NCBI RefSeq assembly: GCF_041261445.1
Contig: NZ_JBGCCU010000008.1
Location: forward strand, 124,001-188,000
Direction: 5' to 3'
Length of the DNA: 64,000 nt
Source: Catenulispora sp. EB89
GTDB taxonomy: Bacteria; Actinomycetota; Actinomycetes; Streptomycetales; Catenulisporaceae
Below the pieces are notes generated by a model. That model was given only the letters and a program-made list of their open reading frames with translations, was not told the origin of the DNA and did no database searches. Positions 1 to 9,603 of the stretch are shown here, piece after piece; within the stretch, counting starts at the first letter, position 1, and each line of letters begins with the position of its first letter. The position numbers and the translations under genes were made by a program.

Positions 1-1
1 A

Positions 2-2005
2 GCCGCGTCCGCCGCTCCCTACGAGGCGACCCGCCTGGAAGACCTCGATCTGCTGCCCAAGCTGCCCGAGGAACAGTGGCTGAGCGTCCCGGTCTGGCGC
101 CAGATTCCGGCCGCCCCGCCCGCCGCCGCGCAGCCCGGCTCCTGGCTGGTGTTCGCGCGGGACGGACTCGCGGCGCAGGTCCTGGACGAGCTGCGCGCCG
201 CCGCCGCAGCGAGTGGCGCCGCCGTGACCGAGGTCCGCCCCGGAGTCGGTTACGGTGACGGCTACGCGGCCGGCGCCGACGGCGGCTACACCGTCCGCCC
301 GGGGAGCAGCGAGGACATCCTCGCAATGCTTCAAGACCTGCGCCGCCGCGAGATCGGCCTGGAGCGGGTCGTGCACTTGTGGGCTCTGGACGAGCGCTCC
401 GAACTGGACGACAAGACCGCGCTCGCCCTCGGCCTGCACTCGCTCGCCGCGCTGTGCCGCGCCGCGGGCGAGGCCGGGTCGACGCACTGGGCGCTCGACA
501 TCGTGAGCGCCGGGGCCTTCCCGGTGCTGGACGGCTCCGAGGCCCGGCCGGTCGCGGCCGCGCTCGTGGGACCGGCGCTGGTGATCCCCCTGGAGTACCC
601 GTCGATCTCCACGCGGCTCATCGACGCCGAGCCGGCCACCGACGCCGCGGCGATCGTCGCCGAGCTGCGCCGGGAACGCACCGGGACGCCCGTCGCGCTC
701 CGCGGAACCCGGCGCTGGCTCAGCGGTTTCGAGACGGTCGCGCCCGCCGACCTCGACGAGGCCGCGAAGACCCTGCGGCCCGGCGGCGTGTACCTGATCA
801 CCGGCGGCCTCGGCGGCCTCGGCCTGGCGATGGCCGAGCGCCTGGTGCGGGCCTGCGGCGCGAAGCTGGTCCTGCTCGGTCGCAGCGGCCTGCCGCCGCG
901 CGAGCAGTGGGCCGCGATCGCCTCCGGCGCCCTGGCCGCCGATCCGGCGGTGCGCGACCGCGTCGAGCGGGTCCGCGCCCTGATCGCCCTCGGCGGCGAG
1001 GTCGAGATCGCGGTCGGCGACGTCGCGGATTCCGCCGACGTGCGCCGCGCCGTCGGACTGGCGCAGGAGCGCTTCGGCGCGCTGCACGGCGTCCTGCACG
1101 CCGCCGGAGTGCCCGGGGTCGGCCTGATCCAGTTCAAGGGGTCCGGCGACAGCGACGCGGTGCTCGCCCCCAAGGTCGACGGTGTCAGGGCCCTGGCCGA
1201 GGCGCTGCGCCTGGACGAGCCCGACGAGGTGCCGCTGGACTTCCTCCTGCTGTTCTCCTCGATCGTCACCAGTACCGGCGGCGGCCCCGGCCAGTTCGAC
1301 TACTGCGCCGCCAACAGCTACCTCGATGGCTACGCGGCCAAGCTCGCCGCCGCCGGCCACCGGGTGGTCTCGGTGGGCTGGGGCGAATGGGCGTGGAACG
1401 CCTGGGAGGGCGGCCTGGGCGGCGTCGACGACGGGACGGCGGCCTTCATGCGCCGGCACCGCGACGCCTTCGGCCTCACCTTCGATGAGGGCTGGCGGAT
1501 GCTGCTGCGGGCGCTGGCCGCCGGCGAGCCGCGGGTCGTGGTCAGCACCCAGGACCTGCCGACGATGGTGCGCTACGGCCGCTCGTTCACCGTGGACCTG
1601 TTCTGGGCCGCGACCCCCGCCGAGGGCGCCGGCCAGGCCCGGCACCCGCGCCCGGAACTGGTCACCGCGTATCAGGAGCCGTCCACCGAGGCCGAGCGGA
1701 CCATCGCCGAGATCTGGGGCGCCGCGCTCAAACTGGACCGGATCGGCGCCCTGGACAACTTCTTCGAGCTGGGCGGCAGCTCGCTGCTCGGGATCAACCT
1801 GCTGGCCGCGGTGCAGCGCGCGTTCCCCGGCGCGCACCTGCCGCCGCACATCCTGCACGAGGCACCGACGGTCGCCGCGCTGGCCAGGATCGCCGCCGGC
1901 CTGGTCGAGGACACCCCGCCGGAGCGCGGCGGCGAGGTCCGCGAGCTCGCCGAGCTCCGCAGATCCGGGCTCAAGGCCGCCGCCGCGCGTCGGCGGCGCG
2001 GCTGA
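2..2005 (+). CDS. Type I polyketide synthase, C-terminal part (KR-ACP), 5' end outside window
   Basis: The frame is open from base 2, so this is the end of a larger modular PKS. The first visible residues (SVPVWRQ) match the linker that follows an AT domain. A ketoreductase structural half comes next. Its catalytic half has the NADPH motif ITGGLGGLGLA and a Ser/Tyr/Asn catalytic region (LLLFSSIV, then FDYCAANSY). No LDD motif follows HAAGV, so it does not look like a B-type KR, but stereochemistry is not safely called. A C-terminal ACP carries the phosphopantetheine serine in ELGGSSLLG. There is no thioesterase domain, so release or transfer must happen elsewhere. The next gene starts 39 bases downstream in the same direction, which suggests one operon with the extender-unit genes. 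Confidence 0.92.
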   Translation, partial: AASAAPYEATRLEDLDLLPKLPEEQWLSVPVWRQIPAAPPAAAQPGSWLVFARDGLAAQVLDELRAAAAASGAAVTEVRPGVGYGDGYAAGADGGYTVRPGSSEDILAMLQDLRRREIGLERVVHLWALDERSELDDKTALALGLHSLAALCRAAGEAGSTHWALDIVSAGAFPVLDGSEARPVAAALVGPALVIPLEYPSISTRLIDAEPATDAAAIVAELRRERTGTPVALRGTRRWLSGFETVAPADLDEAAKTLRPGGVYLITGGLGGLGLAMAERLVRACGAKLVLLGRSGLPPREQWAAIASGALAADPAVRDRVERVRALIALGGEVEIAVGDVADSADVRRAVGLAQERFGALHGVLHAAGVPGVGLIQFKGSGDSDAVLAPKVDGVRALAEALRLDEPDEVPLDFLLLFSSIVTSTGGGPGQFDYCAANSYLDGYAAKLAAAGHRVVSVGWGEWAWNAWEGGLGGVDDGTAAFMRRHRDAFGLTFDEGWRMLLRALAAGEPRVVVSTQDLPTMVRYGRSFTVDLFWAATPAEGAGQARHPRPELVTAYQEPSTEAERTIAEIWGAALKLDRIGALDNFFELGGSSLLGINLLAAVQRAFPGAHLPPHILHEAPTVAALARIAAGLVEDTPPERGGEVRELAELRRSGLKAAAARRRRG

Positions 2006-2044: not shown

Positions 2045-2884
2045 GTGACCGTTGTCGGAGTGGTCGGTGCCGGCGTCATGGGCATCGGCGTCGCCCAGAA
2101 CCTCGCCCAGGACGGATACGACGTCGTCCTGGTCGACCTGGACGAGCAGACGCTGGCCGCGGCCCGCGCCGAGATCGTCCGCAACTGCCGGATGAGCAAG
2201 CTGATGGGCGGCCCGGCCCTGGACCCGGACGAGGTGCTGGCCCGGATCAGCTCCGCGGTCGGGGTCGAGGCGCTGGCCAAGGCCGAGTTCGTGATCGAGA
2301 ACATCACCGAGGACTGGGAGGCCAAGCAGGCCGTGCACCGGCGCCTCGACGAGGTGTGCGCCGAGCAGACCGTGATCATCGCCAACACCTCGGCGATCCC
2401 GATCACCCGGATCGCCTCGGCCGGCCGGCACCCGGAGCGGGTCGTCGGCGTGCACTTCATGAACCCGGTGCCGGCCAAGCCGGTGGTCGAGCTGATCCCC
2501 GGCGTGCACACCTCGCCGCGCACCCTGGAGCTCACCCGCGAACTGCTCGCCGGCATGGGCAAGAAGCCGGTCGAGGTCAAGGACGCCAGCGGCTTCGTCT
2601 CCAACCGGGTGCTGATGCTCACCGTCAACGAGGCGGCCTTCCTGGTGTACGAGGGGGTCGCGACCGCCGCGCAGGTCGACGAGGTCTTCCGGGGCTGCTT
2701 CGGGCACCCGATGGGCCCGCTGGAGACCGCCGACCTGATCGGCGTGGACACCATCCTCTACAGCGTCGAAGTGCTCCACGAGCACTACGCCGACAGCAAG
2801 TACCGGCCGTGCCCGCTGCTCAAGCAGATGACCGACGCGGGCCTGCACGGCCGCAAGTCCGGCCGCGGCTTCTACACCTACTAA
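2045..2884 (+). CDS. fkbK: FkbK-like 3-hydroxyacyl dehydrogenase of the (meth)oxymalonyl-ACP pathway
   Basis: A 279-residue NAD-dependent dehydrogenase of the 3-hydroxyacyl-CoA dehydrogenase family. The Rossmann motif VGAGVMG lies at residues 7-13. The family's catalytic region is visible around VGVHFMNPV, and the C-terminal domain ends in GRKSGRGFYTY. In the FkbG-K / ZmaG pathway this enzyme oxidises glyceryl-ACP at C3. The GTG at 2045 is chosen because AGAAGGAGAG sits just upstream. An upstream in-frame ATG at 2021 would put that ribosome site inside the gene. It is followed by the ACP gene, the FkbI homologue and FkbH, the usual pathway partners. Confidence 0.93.
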   Translation: MTVVGVVGAGVMGIGVAQNLAQDGYDVVLVDLDEQTLAAARAEIVRNCRMSKLMGGPALDPDEVLARISSAVGVEALAKAEFVIENITEDWEAKQAVHRRLDEVCAEQTVIIANTSAIPITRIASAGRHPERVVGVHFMNPVPAKPVVELIPGVHTSPRTLELTRELLAGMGKKPVEVKDASGFVSNRVLMLTVNEAAFLVYEGVATAAQVDEVFRGCFGHPMGPLETADLIGVDTILYSVEVLHEHYADSKYRPCPLLKQMTDAGLHGRKSGRGFYTY

Positions 2885-2899
2885 ACCGAGGAGACGGCC

Positions 2900-3154
2900 A
2901 TGGCCGAGAACACCGGCGAGCAGATCACCAGCTTCATCCACGCCCGCTTCCCGGAGGCGGACTTCACCGAGACCGACGACATCTTCTCGCTCGGTTTCAT
3001 CAACTCCCTGTTCGCCATGGAGCTGGTGATGTACATCGAGAAGACCTTCGGCATCACCATCGGCAACGACGACCTGCGCATCGACAACTTCCGCACCGTC
3101 GCGGCGATGACCGGGCTCGTCGCCCGGCACGTCGCGCCCGCGCCGGTCGCTTAG
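2900..3154 (+). CDS. fkbJ: Discrete acyl carrier protein (FkbJ-like)
   Basis: An 84-residue acidic carrier protein. The phosphopantetheine attachment serine is probably Ser36 in SLGFINSLFA, a variant of the common GxDS motif seen in FkbJ-type ACPs. In this pathway the ACP is loaded with a glyceryl unit by FkbH, then carries it through the two oxidations. It has a good ribosome site (GAGGAGACGGCC) and lies 15 bases after fkbK and 10 bases before the acyl-CoA dehydrogenase gene, so co-translation in stoichiometric amounts is likely. Confidence 0.92.
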   Translation: MAENTGEQITSFIHARFPEADFTETDDIFSLGFINSLFAMELVMYIEKTFGITIGNDDLRIDNFRTVAAMTGLVARHVAPAPVA

Positions 3155-3164
3155 GCGGCGGGGT

Positions 3165-4415
3165 ATGACCAGCACCCTTACCGAACCGACCATCGAACCG
3201 ACCACCGAGCCGGACGCTGCGGCGCTCGCCGCCACAGCGCCCGTGCCGCCCGTGCCGCCCGCGCAGACCGCGCCCGACCGCGACAGCGCGCGCACGTTCG
3301 TGGACAAGCACATCGTGCCGAACGCCGAGGACTACGACCGCCTCGGCGAGATCCCCGAAGAACTCCTGCGGGCGGTGGCGGCCGAAGGGCTCTGGGCCCC
3401 GTTCCTGAGCCCCGAGTTCGGCGGCCACGGCCTGGCCATGACCACGCTCGGGGAGATCCACGAGGAGTTCGGCCGGGGCTGCTCCTCGATGCGCAGCCTG
3501 CTGACCGTGCACACCATGGTCTCCTGGGCGCTCCAGCGCTGGGGCAGCCGGGACCAGCTCGAGCGCTGGGCGCCCGAGCTGGCCGCCGGCCGCGTCCTGG
3601 GCGCCTTCTGCCTGTCCGAGCCGGGGGCCGGCAGCGACGCCGCCGGCATCGCCTCCTCGGCCGCCGAGCGGCCCGGCGGCGGCTGGCTGCTCAACGGTGT
3701 CAAAACCTGGATCACCGGCGGCCGGCGCGCCGACCTCTTCCTGGTCTTCGCCAGGGCCGGGCAGAGCATCGTCGCGCTGCTCGTCCCGCGCGACACCCCG
3801 GGCGTGGAGGTGGCGCCGATCGACGACATGCTCGGCACCCGGGCGTCGCTGGTCGCCGAGGTGCGGTTCACCGACGTGCGGCTGGGACCGGACGCGCTGC
3901 TCGGCCCGGGCGCGTTCGCCTCCGGCATGGTGCTGACCGGGACGCTCGACCTGGGACGCTTCTCCGTCGCCTCGGGCTCGGTCGGCATCATCCAGGCCTG
4001 CGTCGACCTGAGCGCGGCGCACGCGGCCCGGCGCACCGTCGGCGGGCAGCCGCTGCGCGACCTGCAGCTGATCCAGGCCAAGCTCTCCGACATGGTCACC
4101 GACGTGCGCGCGGCCCGGCTGCTGTGCGCCGAGGCCGGCCGGCTCAAGGACGCCGGGGATCCGGCGACAATCATGGCGACGTGGATCGCGAAGTACTTCG
4201 CCTCCACGGCCGCCGCCCGGCACGCCTCGGAGGCCGTGCAGATCCACGGCGCGCTCGGTTGCAGCCCCGGCCACCCGGCCGCGCGGCTCTACCGGGACTC
4301 GAAGGTCATGGAGATCATCGAGGGCAGCACCGAGATCCAGCGGATCACGATCGCCGGCGAGGCGTTTCGGGACCGGTTGCCGACGACCGACACGAACAAG
4401 GAGTGGGCCCGGTGA
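3165..4415 (+). CDS. fkbI: FkbI-like acyl-CoA dehydrogenase family flavoenzyme
   Basis: A 416-residue member of the acyl-CoA dehydrogenase family. The flavin- and substrate-binding middle domain is clear (CLSEPGAGSD, then GVKTWITGG). The C-terminal helical domain includes HASEAVQIHGALGC and the family ending MEIIEGSTEIQRI. In zwittermicin/FK520-type pathways the homologue oxidises the ACP-bound aldehyde intermediate to the carboxylic acid, giving hydroxymalonyl-ACP. The first 40 residues are low-complexity (Pro/Thr/Ala-rich) and are probably disordered. Its TGA overlaps the GTG of the next gene (GTGA), so the two are translationally coupled. Confidence 0.92.
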   Translation: MTSTLTEPTIEPTTEPDAAALAATAPVPPVPPAQTAPDRDSARTFVDKHIVPNAEDYDRLGEIPEELLRAVAAEGLWAPFLSPEFGGHGLAMTTLGEIHEEFGRGCSSMRSLLTVHTMVSWALQRWGSRDQLERWAPELAAGRVLGAFCLSEPGAGSDAAGIASSAAERPGGGWLLNGVKTWITGGRRADLFLVFARAGQSIVALLVPRDTPGVEVAPIDDMLGTRASLVAEVRFTDVRLGPDALLGPGAFASGMVLTGTLDLGRFSVASGSVGIIQACVDLSAAHAARRTVGGQPLRDLQLIQAKLSDMVTDVRAARLLCAEAGRLKDAGDPATIMATWIAKYFASTAAARHASEAVQIHGALGCSPGHPAARLYRDSKVMEIIEGSTEIQRITIAGEAFRDRLPTTDTNKEWAR

Positions 4416-5485
4416 GCACCACGACGGAACCCGGACTCGCGGTCCCGGCGAAGCCGGTGCAGGGCCGCGTCAAATGCGTGGTCTGGGACCTGGACCACAC
4501 GCTCTGGGACGGTGTGCTGCTGGAGGACGAGCAGGTCCGGCTGCGCCCCGGCATGGTCGAGCACATCCGCAGGCTCGACGGCCTCGGCGTGCTGCACTCG
4601 ATCTCCAGCAAGAACGACCCCGAGCTCGCGACGGCGAAGCTGCGCGAGTTCGGGATCGACGACCTCTTCCTGTGCCCGCAGATCGGCTGGGACGCCAAGT
4701 CCGAGTCGATCCGGCGCATCGCGACCCGGCTCAACCTGGGCCTGGACGCGTTCGCCTTCGTCGACGACCAGGAGTTCGAGCGGGCCGAGGTCGAGTTCGC
4801 GCTGCCGGAGGTCACCTGCGTCGACGTGCTCGACGTGGACGAGGTGCTGCTCCGGCCGGACTTCCACCCCCGGTTCGTCACCGACGAGTCGGCGCAGCGC
4901 CGCGGCATGTACCGCAGCCAACTGGAGCGGGAGGAGCTGGAGACCGAGTTCAAGGGCACCAGCGAGCAGTTCCTGGCCAGCCTGGACATGACGTTCACCA
5001 TCGCCCCGGCACGGCGCGAGGACCTCCAGCGCGCCGAGGAACTGACGATCCGCACCAACCAGCTCAACGCGACCGGCCGCACCTACTCCTACGACGAGCT
5101 CGACGCGCTGCGGGAGTCGCCCGACCACCTGCTGCTCGTCGCCTCCCTCACCGACCGCTTCGGCTCCTACGGCAAGATCGGCGTGGCCCTGGTGGAGAAG
5201 GGGCGGCCGGACTGGCGGCTGAACATGATGCTGATGTCCTGCCGGGTGATGTCCCGCGGGGTCGGCTCGGTGCTGCTCAACCACATCATGGGCCGGGCAC
5301 GCGCGGACGGCGCCGGACTGCTGGCCGACTTCGTGGAGACCGGCCGCAACCGGATGATGCAGATCACCTACGCGTTCAGCGGATTCCGCGAGGTCTCCCG
5401 GGACGGCGCGCACGTGGTGCTCGCCGCCGACACCAGCGCGCTGCAGGACCCGCCGGGCTACGTGGTGCTGGAGGTGGAGCAGTGA
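4412..5485 (+). CDS. fkbH: FkbH-like HAD phosphatase/glyceryl transferase
   Basis: A 357-residue bifunctional enzyme. The N-terminal HAD-like domain carries the nucleophile motif VVWDLDHTLWDG, and the C-terminal part resembles a GNAT fold (LMSCRVMSRGVGSVLLNHI). Characterised FkbH proteins take D-1,3-bisphosphoglycerate, remove phosphate and load the glyceryl group onto the discrete ACP. That is the committed step to hydroxy- or methoxymalonyl-ACP. The GTG at 4412 overlaps the stop of the preceding gene and is preferred over the much longer open frame beginning at 4124, which lies inside the acyl-CoA dehydrogenase gene. The gene overlaps the thioesterase start in the same GTGA fashion. Confidence 0.93.
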   Translation: MSTTTEPGLAVPAKPVQGRVKCVVWDLDHTLWDGVLLEDEQVRLRPGMVEHIRRLDGLGVLHSISSKNDPELATAKLREFGIDDLFLCPQIGWDAKSESIRRIATRLNLGLDAFAFVDDQEFERAEVEFALPEVTCVDVLDVDEVLLRPDFHPRFVTDESAQRRGMYRSQLEREELETEFKGTSEQFLASLDMTFTIAPARREDLQRAEELTIRTNQLNATGRTYSYDELDALRESPDHLLLVASLTDRFGSYGKIGVALVEKGRPDWRLNMMLMSCRVMSRGVGSVLLNHIMGRARADGAGLLADFVETGRNRMMQITYAFSGFREVSRDGAHVVLAADTSALQDPPGYVVLEVEQ

Positions 5486-6258
5486 GCGTCGTCGCGGTCG
5501 AGCCCGCGGCGGCCGATCCGGTCGCGTGCCTGCCGTTCGGCGTGCCGGAGGGCGAGACGGTCCTGTACTGCCTGCCGCACGCGGGCGGATCGGCGTCGGT
5601 GTACCGGTCCTGGGCCGGGCGGCTCGGCGGCATCGCGGTGGCGCCGATCCAGCTGCCCGGCCGCGAGACGCGGATGAGGGAGACCCCTTATACGCGGATG
5701 GCCCCGTTGGTGGACGAGCTCGCGGACGCGATCCTGGAGCGGCAGCGGACGCGCGGCGCGTACGCGGTGTACGGCCACAGCCTCGGCGCGCTGGTCGGCT
5801 TCGAGCTGGTCCGCGAGATCCGGCGCCGCGCGGGCCTGGCGCCGGTGCACCTGATCGTCTCCGGTTGTTCCGCCCCGGACCTGCTCGAAGGGAACGACGG
5901 CCAGCCTCCGGTGTCGGAGATGAGCGACGAGGAGGTGGTGGGCCTGCTGCGCCGGCTCGGCGGGACGCCGGAGCCGATCCTGGCCGACCGCTCGGTCCGG
6001 CGCCTGATCCTGCCGCCCTTCCGTGGCGACCTGACAGTCCGCGACACCTACGGCTACCAGCCGGAGCCGCGGCTCGGCGTGCCGGTCACGGCGATCGCCG
6101 CCACCGCCGACCCGCGGGCCAGCGTCGCGCAGATGCGCGGCTGGGGCCGGCAGACCAGCCGCGGCTTCCGGATGCACCTGCTCTCCGGCGGGCACTTCGC
6201 CGTCCTGGAGCACGCCGAGGCCACGCGCGCTTTCATCCGCGGGGCCGTCGAAGGCTGA
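5482..6258 (+). CDS. Type II thioesterase
   Basis: A 258-residue alpha/beta hydrolase of the GrsT/RifR type. The nucleophile elbow is GHSLG with Ser100, the oxyanion segment is LPHAGGSASVY, and the catalytic His lies in LSGGHFAVLEH near residue 238. Enzymes of this class clear stalled or wrongly loaded acyl groups from PKS carrier domains. The GTG at 5482 overlaps the fkbH stop. It is the last gene of the forward operon, and a strong hairpin follows at once. Confidence 0.93.
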   Translation: MSVVAVEPAAADPVACLPFGVPEGETVLYCLPHAGGSASVYRSWAGRLGGIAVAPIQLPGRETRMRETPYTRMAPLVDELADAILERQRTRGAYAVYGHSLGALVGFELVREIRRRAGLAPVHLIVSGCSAPDLLEGNDGQPPVSEMSDEEVVGLLRRLGGTPEPILADRSVRRLILPPFRGDLTVRDTYGYQPEPRLGVPVTAIAATADPRASVAQMRGWGRQTSRGFRMHLLSGGHFAVLEHAEATRAFIRGAVEG

Positions 6259-6330: not shown

Positions 6331-9300
6331 TCAGGTGTCGCGGATGCAGGAGGCGAGCCCGCGTACCGTCGGGTGCTCCACGATGGCGGTGGCCGGCAGC
6401 GTCACGGCCTGCTCGGAGCCGATGCTGACGGCCAGCTGGACCGCGGTGAGGGACCGGCCGCCGAGCTCGAAGAAGTTGTCGTCGGCGCCGATGGGCTCCA
6501 CGTTCAGGGTGCGGATCCAGGCGTCGGCGATCGAGCGTTCGAGGCCGGCGTCGGGCTCGATGTAGGGGACCGCGAGGGTGGGTCGGGCGGTTCGCTCGGC
6601 GCGGGTGGCGTCGGGGTCGGCGTCGGCGGTGGAGGCGACGTGTGACCGAAAACCGCGCTGCGGCGAGCCGTTCGTGATGACGACCTGAGCCAAGTGGCTG
6701 CTGGCCGCCACGGCGCCTTCCAGGAAGCGCAGGGCGACGGACAGCGCTGACTGCTGCTGCTGGTGGTCGTCGCCGGCGATCGACTCGTCCCACGTCAGGG
6801 CGAGCCATCTGCCGTGGCCCCTCTGGCGGGCTGCGTGTGCGCGAGCCGCGAGTGCCGCGCCGTCCGGCGAATCAGGGCACAGTGCGATGAGGCGGCAGTC
6901 TCCGGCATCGCCATCATCCGCGCTGATCACGATCACCTTGGCGCCCGCGGCCTCCAACGAGGCTTTGGCTGCTTGGACGGCGGTGCCCTCGACGCCGGCG
7001 ATCCCAACAATCTGCTCGCGAAACGACCCGGATCGGCGCTGCTGACCGGGACCGTCGAGCTCGACCAGCTCATAGTCGCGCACCCACACATCGGCACCGC
7101 GAACAGCCGTGGGCCCCTGGTATTCGCCCACCATCGCCGCGAGCGTCTGGTCCACGTCCGCGAAGCCGTCGATGTCGATGTGCCGGCCGCCCACCTGCCC
7201 CGCGAACGCCCCGATCGGGGCCTGCTCCGGATGCGCCAGGTCCGCCCCGCTCACGCCGACCGCCTGCGAGGTCAGGAACACCAGGCCGACCCTCGCCGTC
7301 GGGAGCGCTTCGCGGAGCGCGTCCACGAACGTTGGCGCGCTCTCGATCCCGCTTTCGTGGACGACACAGATGCGCGGCGCGACAATCAGATCCCTGAGGT
7401 CCGCCTCGGACTCGATCACTTCGGCGCCGGCTATCAGCAGCCTGTGTTCGAGCGGACTCATCACGGAGTCGGCGCCCAGCAGCAGCCAGGGACCCGCAGC
7501 CCGCAGGCGCGTGTCGAGGTCTGCGGTCGGCCGGGGGAGTGGGCGCCAGATCGGCACGTACGAACGAACCCGCGGCTCGAAGTCGCTGACCGTCTTGGTA
7601 TCGAGCGAGGCAGACGCGTCAGCGTCGATCCAATGGCGCTTGCGCTGGAACGGGTACGTCGGGAGCTCGACGCGCCGACCAGCGCCCCGATGCAGCGCCT
7701 TCCAATCGATCCGCGAACCCGCGAGCCACAGCCTGCCCAGCGCCGCCACCAGCCACTCGGCCGCGCCACCCGCCGCAGGATCGACCGCGAGCTCGACGGT
7801 ATTGGTCGAACCCTGGTTGTCCCCGATCGTCGCACGTACCCCGAGGCCATCCAGAGCCACCCGCAAGGCCTCCAGCACTGCTACACGCCCCACCGCAACA
7901 TCCTGCGACACCAGCCCGGCGATCGCCGCGCCCAGCTCCGCCCACACCGCCCCGGTCAGCTCCTCGGGCACCACGATGCGAACCTGCGGATCCCGCCGCT
8001 GCGTCAGCCCCTCAATCCACCGCGCCGGATCGCCCATAGCCTCGATCGCATCACCGAGATCGCGGCACACCACAGCCCGCCGCAGCGCGAACCGCCCCCG
8101 CGACACCTGGAGCGTGAAGGCGATGTCCGCAAGACTCTGCGATTCCTCCGACCCCTCCGACCCCTCCATCACGCGCCGAAGGTGGCCACGCAGCCGCTCG
8201 GCCACCTGGCCCAGCGCCTCCTCGTCCGCCGCCGAGAACGCCAGCAGCTGCGGACCCGTAGCGCGCGCCGCGCCCGACTCGCGGACCGGTGCCTCCTCCA
8301 GCACCACATGCGCGTTGGTGCCGCCCACGCCGAACGAGCTGACCCCCGCGCGCCGCGGTTCGGGCCCGGCCGGCCACGGCTGGTCCCGCGTCAGCACCGT
8401 GAACCGGCCCTCGCTCGCGGCCAGCGCCGGGTTGGGTGTCCGGAAGCCGGGCACCGCGGGCAGCAGCGCGTGCCGCAGGCACAGCGCGGCGCGGATGAGG
8501 GCCGTGACGCCCGACGCGGCGTCGAGGTGCCCGACCGCCGGCTTCACCGAGCCCAGGACGCGGGTGCCGTCCGAGTCCTTGAACACCCGGCCGAGCGCCG
8601 CCAGCTCGATCGAGTCGCCCAGCGGCGTGCCGATGGCGTGGCACTCGACGTAGCCCACCGATTCCGGCTTGACCCCGGCGACGGCCAGCGCGGCCGAGAT
8701 CGCCTCGGCCTCGCCGTCCACGCCCGGGGCGCCGTAGCCCGCGCGGTCGCGGCCGTCGTTGTTCACCGCGGAGCCGAGGATCACCGCGTGGATGACGTCG
8801 CCGTCGGCGAGTGCGTCCGCCATCCGCTTGAGCGCCACGACCGCGACCCCGGAGCCCGGGACCGTGCCGTTCGCCTCGGCGTCGAACGGACGGATCCGGC
8901 CGTCCGGCGAGTGGATCCCGTCGGGCCGGTGCACGTACCCGGCCGGCTGCGGCAGCGGCAGCGAGGCGCCGCCGGCCAGCGCGATGTCGGTCTCGTAGGT
9001 GAGCAGGCTCTGGCAGGCCAGGTGCACGGCGACCAGCGAGGTCGAGCAGAAGCTCTGCACGGTCACCCCGGGCCCGCGCAGCCCCAGCTTGTAGCTCACC
9101 AGCGAGGTCAGCGAGTCGCGCTCGTTCCCGGCCGCGAAGGACTTCGCCGCCTCCGGATCCTTCGCCAGGCGCAGGTTGCGCAGCATGTAGTCGGGGAACG
9201 AGCAGCCCGCGTAGATCCCCACCACGCCGTCCGGCTCGGTCGGCCGGTATCCGGCGCTCTCCAGGGCTTCCCACGCGCACTCGAGCAGCAGCCGGTGCTG

Positions 9301-9603
9301 CGGCTCCATGATCTCGGCCTCGCGCTCGGTGAAGCCGAAGACCGCGGCGTCGAACAGCTCGATCCCGTCGACCGGTCCGCCGACGCGCACGTAGCCCGGG
9401 TCGGCGGTCACGGCCGGGTCCAGGCCCGCCGCGACCGCCTCCTCGTCCGTGATCGCGCGCAGGCCCAGCCGGCCGCGGGTGAGGTCGTCCCACAGCTGCG
9501 CGACCGTGGACGCGCCGGGGAATCGTCCCGACATGCCGACCAGCGCGACCGCCGACTCGTGGTCGGCGGCGGGATCGTCGTCTTCGATTCCTTGGATCTT
9601 CAT
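6331..9603 (-). CDS. AT-less modular PKS: KS, degenerate KR, ACP
   Basis: A 1090-residue PKS. The KS spans about residues 18-437, with the active-site Cys186 in VQSFCSTSLVAVH, His322 in ECHAIGTPLGDSIE and His359 in VGHLDAASG, so condensation is possible. The usual KS-AT linker follows (to ~515). Then only ~100 residues, with no GxSxG acyltransferase motif, lead to the post-AT linker ending LPTYPFQRKRHW (~648-658). The AT core is therefore missing. A KR-like region (~680-960) lacks the TGGxGxxG site (it reads GIAGVEG) and shows no catalytic Tyr, so it is probably structural. The ACP has its serine in ELGGRSLTAV. The ATG has GGGAGA upstream. It is transcribed toward the opposing operon. Confidence 0.9.
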   Translation of the reverse strand: MKIQGIEDDDPAADHESAVALVGMSGRFPGASTVAQLWDDLTRGRLGLRAITDEEAVAAGLDPAVTADPGYVRVGGPVDGIELFDAAVFGFTEREAEIMEPQHRLLLECAWEALESAGYRPTEPDGVVGIYAGCSFPDYMLRNLRLAKDPEAAKSFAAGNERDSLTSLVSYKLGLRGPGVTVQSFCSTSLVAVHLACQSLLTYETDIALAGGASLPLPQPAGYVHRPDGIHSPDGRIRPFDAEANGTVPGSGVAVVALKRMADALADGDVIHAVILGSAVNNDGRDRAGYGAPGVDGEAEAISAALAVAGVKPESVGYVECHAIGTPLGDSIELAALGRVFKDSDGTRVLGSVKPAVGHLDAASGVTALIRAALCLRHALLPAVPGFRTPNPALAASEGRFTVLTRDQPWPAGPEPRRAGVSSFGVGGTNAHVVLEEAPVRESGAARATGPQLLAFSAADEEALGQVAERLRGHLRRVMEGSEGSEESQSLADIAFTLQVSRGRFALRRAVVCRDLGDAIEAMGDPARWIEGLTQRRDPQVRIVVPEELTGAVWAELGAAIAGLVSQDVAVGRVAVLEALRVALDGLGVRATIGDNQGSTNTVELAVDPAAGGAAEWLVAALGRLWLAGSRIDWKALHRGAGRRVELPTYPFQRKRHWIDADASASLDTKTVSDFEPRVRSYVPIWRPLPRPTADLDTRLRAAGPWLLLGADSVMSPLEHRLLIAGAEVIESEADLRDLIVAPRICVVHESGIESAPTFVDALREALPTARVGLVFLTSQAVGVSGADLAHPEQAPIGAFAGQVGGRHIDIDGFADVDQTLAAMVGEYQGPTAVRGADVWVRDYELVELDGPGQQRRSGSFREQIVGIAGVEGTAVQAAKASLEAAGAKVIVISADDGDAGDCRLIALCPDSPDGAALAARAHAARQRGHGRWLALTWDESIAGDDHQQQQSALSVALRFLEGAVAASSHLAQVVITNGSPQRGFRSHVASTADADPDATRAERTARPTLAVPYIEPDAGLERSIADAWIRTLNVEPIGADDNFFELGGRSLTAVQLAVSIGSEQAVTLPATAIVEHPTVRGLASCIRDT

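Follow-up and report, generated by a model that had tools for sequence, protein, structure and literature searches.

A polyketide synthase module without acyltransferase in Catenulispora and its possible loading by the acyltransferase of a neighbouring module

In a window of 64,000 nucleotides from Catenulispora sp. EB89 (C8:124001-188000 of the 11.9 Mb genome G000), a gene at 6331..9603 on the minus strand encodes a single polyketide synthase (PKS) module that has no acyltransferase (AT). With a probability of roughly 0.55, this gene specifies the last elongation module of its assembly line and is served by AT sharing, in which the AT of the penultimate module, marked by a GYSxG motif, loads hydroxymalonyl from the discrete acyl carrier protein (ACP) FkbJ. 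We infer elongation with hydroxymalonyl from the published labelling of butyrolactol, and the penultimate AT is the presumed donor. The assembly line probably yields hydroxyl-rich molecules, and the same AT loss is found in terminal modules of other soil bacteria.

Anatomy and ancestry of the terminal module

The protein is built of the following parts, all on the minus strand.

6331..9603, minus: AT-less terminal PKS module, 1090 amino acids (aa), ATG start; ketosynthase (KS), linker, AT remnant, post-AT linker, broken ketoreductase (KR), carrier protein
8299..9552, minus: ketosynthase, residues 18-435; Cys186, His322, His359; terminal-clade signatures ECHAxGT and KPxxGH
8005..8298, minus: KS-AT linker domain, residues 436-533 (approximate limits); Pfam CurL-like_PKS_C and RhiE-like_linker; folded in the model
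7768..8004, minus: AT remnant, residues 534-612 (approximate limits); without GHSxG and HxxH; small alpha/beta unit predicted
7624..7767, minus: post-AT linker, residues 613-660, terminating in ELPTYPFQRKRHWID
6589..7623, minus: broken ketoreductase region, residues 661-1005; cofactor and Tyr motifs lost
6340..6576, minus: carrier protein domain, residues 1010-1088; Pfam PP-binding; GGRSL serine retained

Pfam recognizes the N and C domains of the KS, the KS extension, the CurL-like/RhiE-like linker and the carrier protein, matches no AT or KR family in the 1090 aa up to an E-value of 1, and finds no thioesterase (TE) domain downstream of the carrier protein. An earlier note on this DNA had described an AT core missing between recognizable linkers, and the distances agree. 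The spacing from GTNAH to YPFQR is 214 residues in the window gene and 133-241 across 16 terminal modules, whereas the measurable AT-bearing modules of these clusters have 438-504 (several gave no value). About 80-100 residues are left between the two linkers. The note took them for replacement sequence devoid of AT motifs; the motifs are indeed absent, with neither nucleophile elbow nor HxxH left in the remnant, but its predicted fold suggests that the segment is a reduced AT and not mere filler. An AlphaFold model of linker plus remnant (221 residues, nine sequences; mean pLDDT 79.9, pTM 0.78) predicts two small alpha/beta units, the remnant having the order beta-alpha-alpha-beta-beta-alpha, and contains no folded active AT, in agreement with Pfam. 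The top Foldseek match is oxazolomycin OzmQ KS1 (4oqj; 28 percent identity in the fold alignment), and ZmaA-AT (4qbu) ranks eighth. In a profile search the best E-value belongs to 7zma, aligned in separate pieces, followed by OzmQ, whose alignment spans positions 5-212 of 213 and contains an insertion. OzmQ also seems to carry a shrunken AT between its linkers. The full-length AlphaFold model of the protein (mean pLDDT 48.4) was not used.

The catalytic triad named in the note, Cys186, His322 and His359, is invariant across nine aligned terminal modules including the window gene, as is the carrier protein serine; the KS Lys is likewise retained. The KR was rightly called dead, with neither TGGLGxxG nor YxxxN found in its region. 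For the single pair formed with the ortholog of sister genome G001, dN/dS is 0.18 in the KS, 0.19 in the linker (residues 431-545), 0.29 in the ACP, 0.33 in the post-AT linker, 0.42 in the KR region and 0.44 in the AT remnant (residues 546-615). These figures are loose, since dN/dS in the upstream PKS protein spans 0.13 to 0.54 with its maximum in a seemingly intact KR. They suggest purifying selection on KS, linker and carrier protein of the terminal module, and looser constraint on AT remnant and KR.

Relatives come from a search of 147 related genomes, a contig scan (at least 80 loci) and the pSCAT cluster, and the family list is a lower bound. At least 16 terminal modules were identified among the matches listed, namely those of the window's family (this genome, G001, G004, G006, G007, G009 and G013) and nine others, from Microbispora oryzae, Streptomyces otsuchiensis, Amycolatopsis sp. 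A133, three Nonomuraea, two further Streptomyces and pSCAT, the S. cattleyicolor plasmid carrying a butyrolactol-type cluster. None of the 16 gives an AT match, and module 1 of the upstream PKS protein own_033 is AT-less too, so AT loss is not the isolated case that had been supposed. Its recurrence is more than chance or one-off decay and points to an old, conserved trait. Both KR motifs are present in 10 of the 16 modules and lost in six (this genome, G001, G013, L073, L077 and L078); in G013 the cofactor motif is retained and the Tyr motif lost, in what appears to be an intermediate state of KR loss.

A KS tree of 136 rows, made by a quick method and without annotated trans-AT reference KSs, places the 15 complete terminal KSs, pSCAT cat_02 among them, in one clade (SH-aLRT 99). 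The sister of this clade (98) is formed by KSs of AT-bearing hydroxymalonyl-type modules from the same assembly lines, and the six KR-less terminal modules form one subgroup (94). Because the terminal KSs are one clade and the KR-less ones a subgroup of it, the AT was apparently lost once in the terminal module, from a cis-AT parent, and the KR was lost later, in a single subclade to which the window gene belongs. This supports the proposal of a cis-AT module that lost its AT; a trans-AT origin of the terminal KS is disfavoured by its sister relation to AT-bearing modules of its own line. If ATs were not regained, the tree implies at least four separate AT losses, in the terminal clade, module 1 of this genome and G001, module 1 of G013_003, and module 8 of pSCAT.

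Supply of hydroxymalonyl

The need for an extender unit delivered in trans, anticipated in the earlier note, is supported by the gene context. The full set of four fkb genes (fkbK-J-I-H) can be seen next to 14 of the 16 terminal modules, the exceptions being L071, whose locus stops inside fkbI, and the fragmented G006. In L071, L074-L076 and pSCAT the terminal gene overlaps the preceding gene by 4 bases, which supports the order of the modules. The presumed penultimate module retains a GYSxG AT in all 15 clusters where it is visible (L072 runs off its locus); in this genome it is the GYSLG AT of own_033, at C8:122721-123662, just outside the window. The GYSxG ATs that are long enough, 37 in all, group in one clade (100/99), which includes both ATs of the pSCAT butyrolactol-type modules and leaves outside the upstream protein own_028, considered below. 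In the account of ZmaA and ZmaF in PMC4207774, GYSxG marks ATs for ACP-bound extender units.

The identity of the unit is suggested by butyrolactol A. According to the labelling in PMC5355916, its backbone consists of 11 units (four hydroxymalonyl units giving C1-C8, methylmalonate giving C9-C10, and six acetate units), and C1-C2 are labelled by glucose, not by acetate. The domain table of PMC5932044 lists 3+1+2+2+2+1 = 11 extension modules, of which the 8th (KS/KR/ACP) and the 11th, Orf10-18 (KS/DH/KR/ACP), have no AT; the AT-less domain strings are already published there. When labelling and table are counted together, a step of the present analysis and not of the papers, a colinear line requires hydroxymalonyl to be added by both AT-less modules. 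The pSCAT cluster repeats the butyrolactol gene order and sizes; cat_02 (1154 aa) is its terminal module, and the counterpart of the 8th module has a dead AT (GHGVG, without HxxH).

In the mechanism proposed, the window gene would encode the final elongation module of an assembly line for polyene-polyols of the butyrolactol type. The terminal KS would take the chain from the penultimate module and extend it by one hydroxymalonyl unit. The module's own AT would have been deleted in an ancestor of the whole clade, and the penultimate ACP-type AT would take hydroxymalonyl off FkbJ and load both its own carrier protein and the terminal one, a single AT thereby serving neighbouring modules.

A direct route, raised in the earlier note, would have the KS condense the chain with FkbJ-bound hydroxymalonyl, or FkbJ charge the terminal ACP without any AT. 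It accords with the adjacency of the fkb genes in 14 of the 16 clusters, and with the restriction of AT loss among extension modules to the hydroxymalonyl type: in 11 clusters, which are related so that counts are not independent, 33 of 48 hydroxymalonyl-type modules carry an AT (15 losses) and so do all 24 other extension modules (no loss). Loading modules, whose ATs are truncated in own_031 and in G001, were left out of this census. Against the direct route, the serine of the terminal ACP is invariant in the nine aligned modules, and the mid-line AT-less modules, which retain ACPs of their own, would be left with a stranded chain if it were extended on a discrete ACP. AT sharing is preferred because the presumed penultimate module has a GYSxG AT in all 15 clusters where it is visible, and direct transfer is quite unlikely.

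Several points weigh against AT sharing, some of them in favour of another donor, a discrete AT that would load the terminal ACP with malonyl or hydroxymalonyl. That a GYSxG AT charges the ACP of another module is a step that we infer, and the GYSxG ATs here carry HAFH, listed in PMC4207774 as a malonyl-CoA-type motif. The colinearity of the butyrolactol line is an assumption, since not all AT predictions in the domain table fit the labelling, the first extension module being given as methylmalonyl (PMC5932044); in the same table, Komaki et al. predict malonyl for both Orf10-17 modules. The orthology of Orf10-18 and cat_02 is judged from gene order and size. MCAT rescues the AT-null module 6 of DEBS, as described in PMC6164871, and a standalone AT is proposed for the AT-less haliamide modules 2 and 5 in PMC6274090. 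A discrete AT is present in this very cluster, own_028 (G000:C8:96979-98865, L010:12979-14865, minus strand, outside the window), which joins a shredded KS to a complete AT retaining GTSQG and HASH. All three Nonomuraea have a GHSVG AT of 301-304 aa with conserved neighbours (L194:3924-4838, L195:2128-3033, L196:3995-4903). In N. rhodomycinica and N. glycinis its gene lies ~17 kb ahead of that for the loading PKS, and N. harbinensis carries it on a different contig; the AT is a possible donor or starter enzyme. Finally, trans-AT-type ATs exist elsewhere in G000 and G004. Besides a FabD-like protein, G000 has a tandem AT-AT-NMO protein of 1032 aa on C41, next to a KS protein devoid of ATs, in what seems to be a separate, trans-AT cluster. 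G004 gives 14 AT matches above cut-off, eight of them in this cluster and every one of these inside PKS proteins; the others comprise a 403-residue frame resembling housekeeping FabD (KASIII-like neighbour, judged by eye), an AT-NMO protein of 865 aa and, in a frame of 2303 residues, a further AT, both near 2.93-2.95 Mb of C1 and both passing the fabD model, and remaining matches in large frames.

Across the family, comparison of the loci suggests that no discrete AT recurs with the terminal module. The upstream search advised by the earlier note did retrieve one AT-bearing protein, own_028, but its AT falls in the loading-AT clade. This placement and the absence of a counterpart between the matching neighbours in G001 disfavour own_028 as donor; it may be a split-off loading AT, or decaying. 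Apart from it, no discrete AT occurs in the stretches around the clusters of this genome, G001, G004, G007, G009 and G013. The fabD cut-off is passed by none of 12 further genomes. G013 (97 percent complete) and G006 (77 percent complete, with a PKS fragment at a contig end) each have a single short-frame AT standing alone, and it is of FabD size. Complete PF00698 listings cover G000, G004, G006, G013, G149, G150, G493 and G494, with G001, G007, G009, G147 and G148 left out. Nine discrete ATs from five genomes were read (own_028 and eight others), all of them without the GYSxG motif, and the glucose labelling of butyrolactol C1-C2 (PMC5355916, as above) also argues against malonyl from such an enzyme. 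Loading by a discrete AT, whether own_028, the Nonomuraea enzyme, a trans-AT of another cluster or FabD, is unlikely.

A terminal module that does not elongate but hands the chain on, aids release or persists as a relic would account for the altered ECHAxGT and KPxxGH signatures of the terminal clade and for the six losses of KR motifs. The earlier note had named a non-elongating KS as fatal to its reading. Such a KS is disfavoured, since Cys, both His and Lys are retained and since, in a colinear line, the unit count of butyrolactol requires all 11 modules including the AT-less ones, so that the butyrolactol counterpart must elongate; KS and ACP also appear to be under purifying selection. 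This explanation is improbable.

AT sharing would have further consequences in this genome, where one GYSxG AT faces three modules. The penultimate ACP-specific AT may feed all three from FkbJ (its own module, the preceding AT-less one and the terminal one), a naturally evolved case of sharing. Given the later loss of the KR in this lineage, C3 should probably remain a ketone until release. The C2 and C4 hydroxyls would derive from hydroxymalonyl units, and ring closure of the 2-hydroxy-3-keto end through its C4 hydroxyl could yield a 2,3-dihydroxybutenolide, the ring found in ascorbic acid, where butyrolactol has a dihydroxylactone. This combined picture, with a lactonization drawn from chemical reasoning, is speculative.

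If AT sharing is true, cis-AT lines using ACP-bound extenders can shed their ATs stepwise while a remaining AT serves the neighbours. The cluster would be a natural experiment in AT sharing and a possible origin route for AT-less lines. It would also guide the engineering of hydroxymalonyl incorporation and offer a testable product prediction for a little-explored cluster family.

Gene neighbourhood and occurrence in other genomes

Upstream of the window lie genes for an ACP, an AMP ligase, an ABC pair, own_028, a pyridoxal phosphate (PLP) decarboxylase and the PKS proteins own_031-own_033. The own_033 gene (G000:C8:116946-126005) ends at window position 2005; fkbK-J-I-H and the thioesterase come after it, facing the terminal module gene.

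1..2005, plus: 3' end of own_033, KR and carrier protein of the presumed penultimate module
2045..2884, plus: FkbK-like 3-hydroxyacyl-CoA dehydrogenase; Pfam 3HCDH_N and 3HCDH
2900..3154, plus: FkbJ-like discrete ACP, 84 aa; Pfam PP-binding; present in relatives too
3165..4415, plus: FkbI-like acyl-CoA dehydrogenase; Pfam Acyl-CoA_dh domains
4412..5485, plus: FkbH glyceryl-ACP protein; NCBIfam TIGR01686 FkbH, 274 bits, above cut-off
5482..6258, plus: discrete thioesterase, probably type II; Pfam Thioesterase

The gap in module 1 of the upstream PKS measures 275 residues in own_033 and 144 in G001, the difference being due to an Ala/Glu-rich insert present only in own_033. Further upstream, at G000:C8:73753-91815 (own_009-own_022), sets of small ACP, KASIII-like and acyl-CoA dehydrogenase-like genes repeat; they are partly common to G001 and Amycolatopsis L073.

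Outside the family, a Streptomyces survey with query A3 matched 25 of 392 genomes at 1e-15, one of them at ortholog strength (G392, 7e-86; next best 3e-23). Among seven loci checked, a module was readable in one only, and its AT is intact. In eight of the 10 KR-intact clusters the terminal module gene is immediately followed by a second acyl-CoA dehydrogenase gene (G004:C1:8097827-8098987, with counterparts in G006, G007, G009, L071 and L074-L076); this second gene is not found at this place in L072, pSCAT or this genome. Nonomuraea cypriaca (L138:2909-15751) has another AT-less KS-KR-ACP module, adjoining a discrete ACP, an FkbK-like protein and an acyl-CoA dehydrogenase, together with a class II tRNA-synthetase-like protein (Pfam below cut-off); these genes may supply aminomalonyl-ACP to the AT-less module. 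Short KS-AT remnant-ACP proteins of 855 and 756 aa, possibly OzmQ-like, are encoded at L119:8732-11299 (Streptomyces coffeae) and L093:8780-11050. Their AT halves are dead (GSGVG and GEGPG), and L093 also has an FkbH-like gene.

Comparison with known systems

Among the closest systems is the butyrolactol A PKS, where Orf10-18 (1169 aa), an AT-less terminal KS protein, directly precedes the fkb genes and the extender is hydroxymalonyl; the domain table of PMC5932044 also gives the second module of Orf10-16 without AT. This cluster shares with it the fkbK-J-I-H set and thioesterase beside the PKS, and the terminal KS falls with pSCAT cat_02 in one clade (support 99). The butyrolactol line differs by its starter and by an active terminal KR (C3 hydroxyl), whose motifs are lost in the window gene; its sequence was compared through the pSCAT counterpart. 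For a related octaketide cluster, the domain description in PMC8880029 has KS/KR/ACP as the last protein. A second short KS-like protein of butyrolactol, Orf10-28 (868 aa), labelled hypothetical, stands beside ABC transporter genes in Table 2 of PMC5355916. No counterpart was recognized at the same place on pSCAT.

The oxazolomycin line has discrete ATs. OzmQ KS1 (PDB 4oqj) is the best fold match and resembles the window protein in its seemingly shrunken AT between linkers; identity in the fold alignment is 28 percent. Zwittermicin ZmaA-AT and ZmaF, as treated in PMC4207774, likewise combine ACP-bound extenders (hydroxymalonyl-ACP and aminomalonyl-ACP) with GYSxG ATs, yet ZmaA-AT is integrated in its PKS, and the YASH-motif region reads GAAH and GPFH versus HAFH here. 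The haliamide PKS of Haliangium ochraceum resembles this line in having modules 2 and 5 without ATs, the last also without KR, and differs by its malonyl extender and the standalone AT proposed (PMC6274090). Like trans-AT PKSs, the window module lacks an integrated AT and retains both linkers, and module 1 of own_033 also lacks an AT. Unlike them, the window module appears to descend from a cis-AT parent in its own line, most modules of which keep their ATs, as module 2 of own_033 and the malonyl-type modules do.

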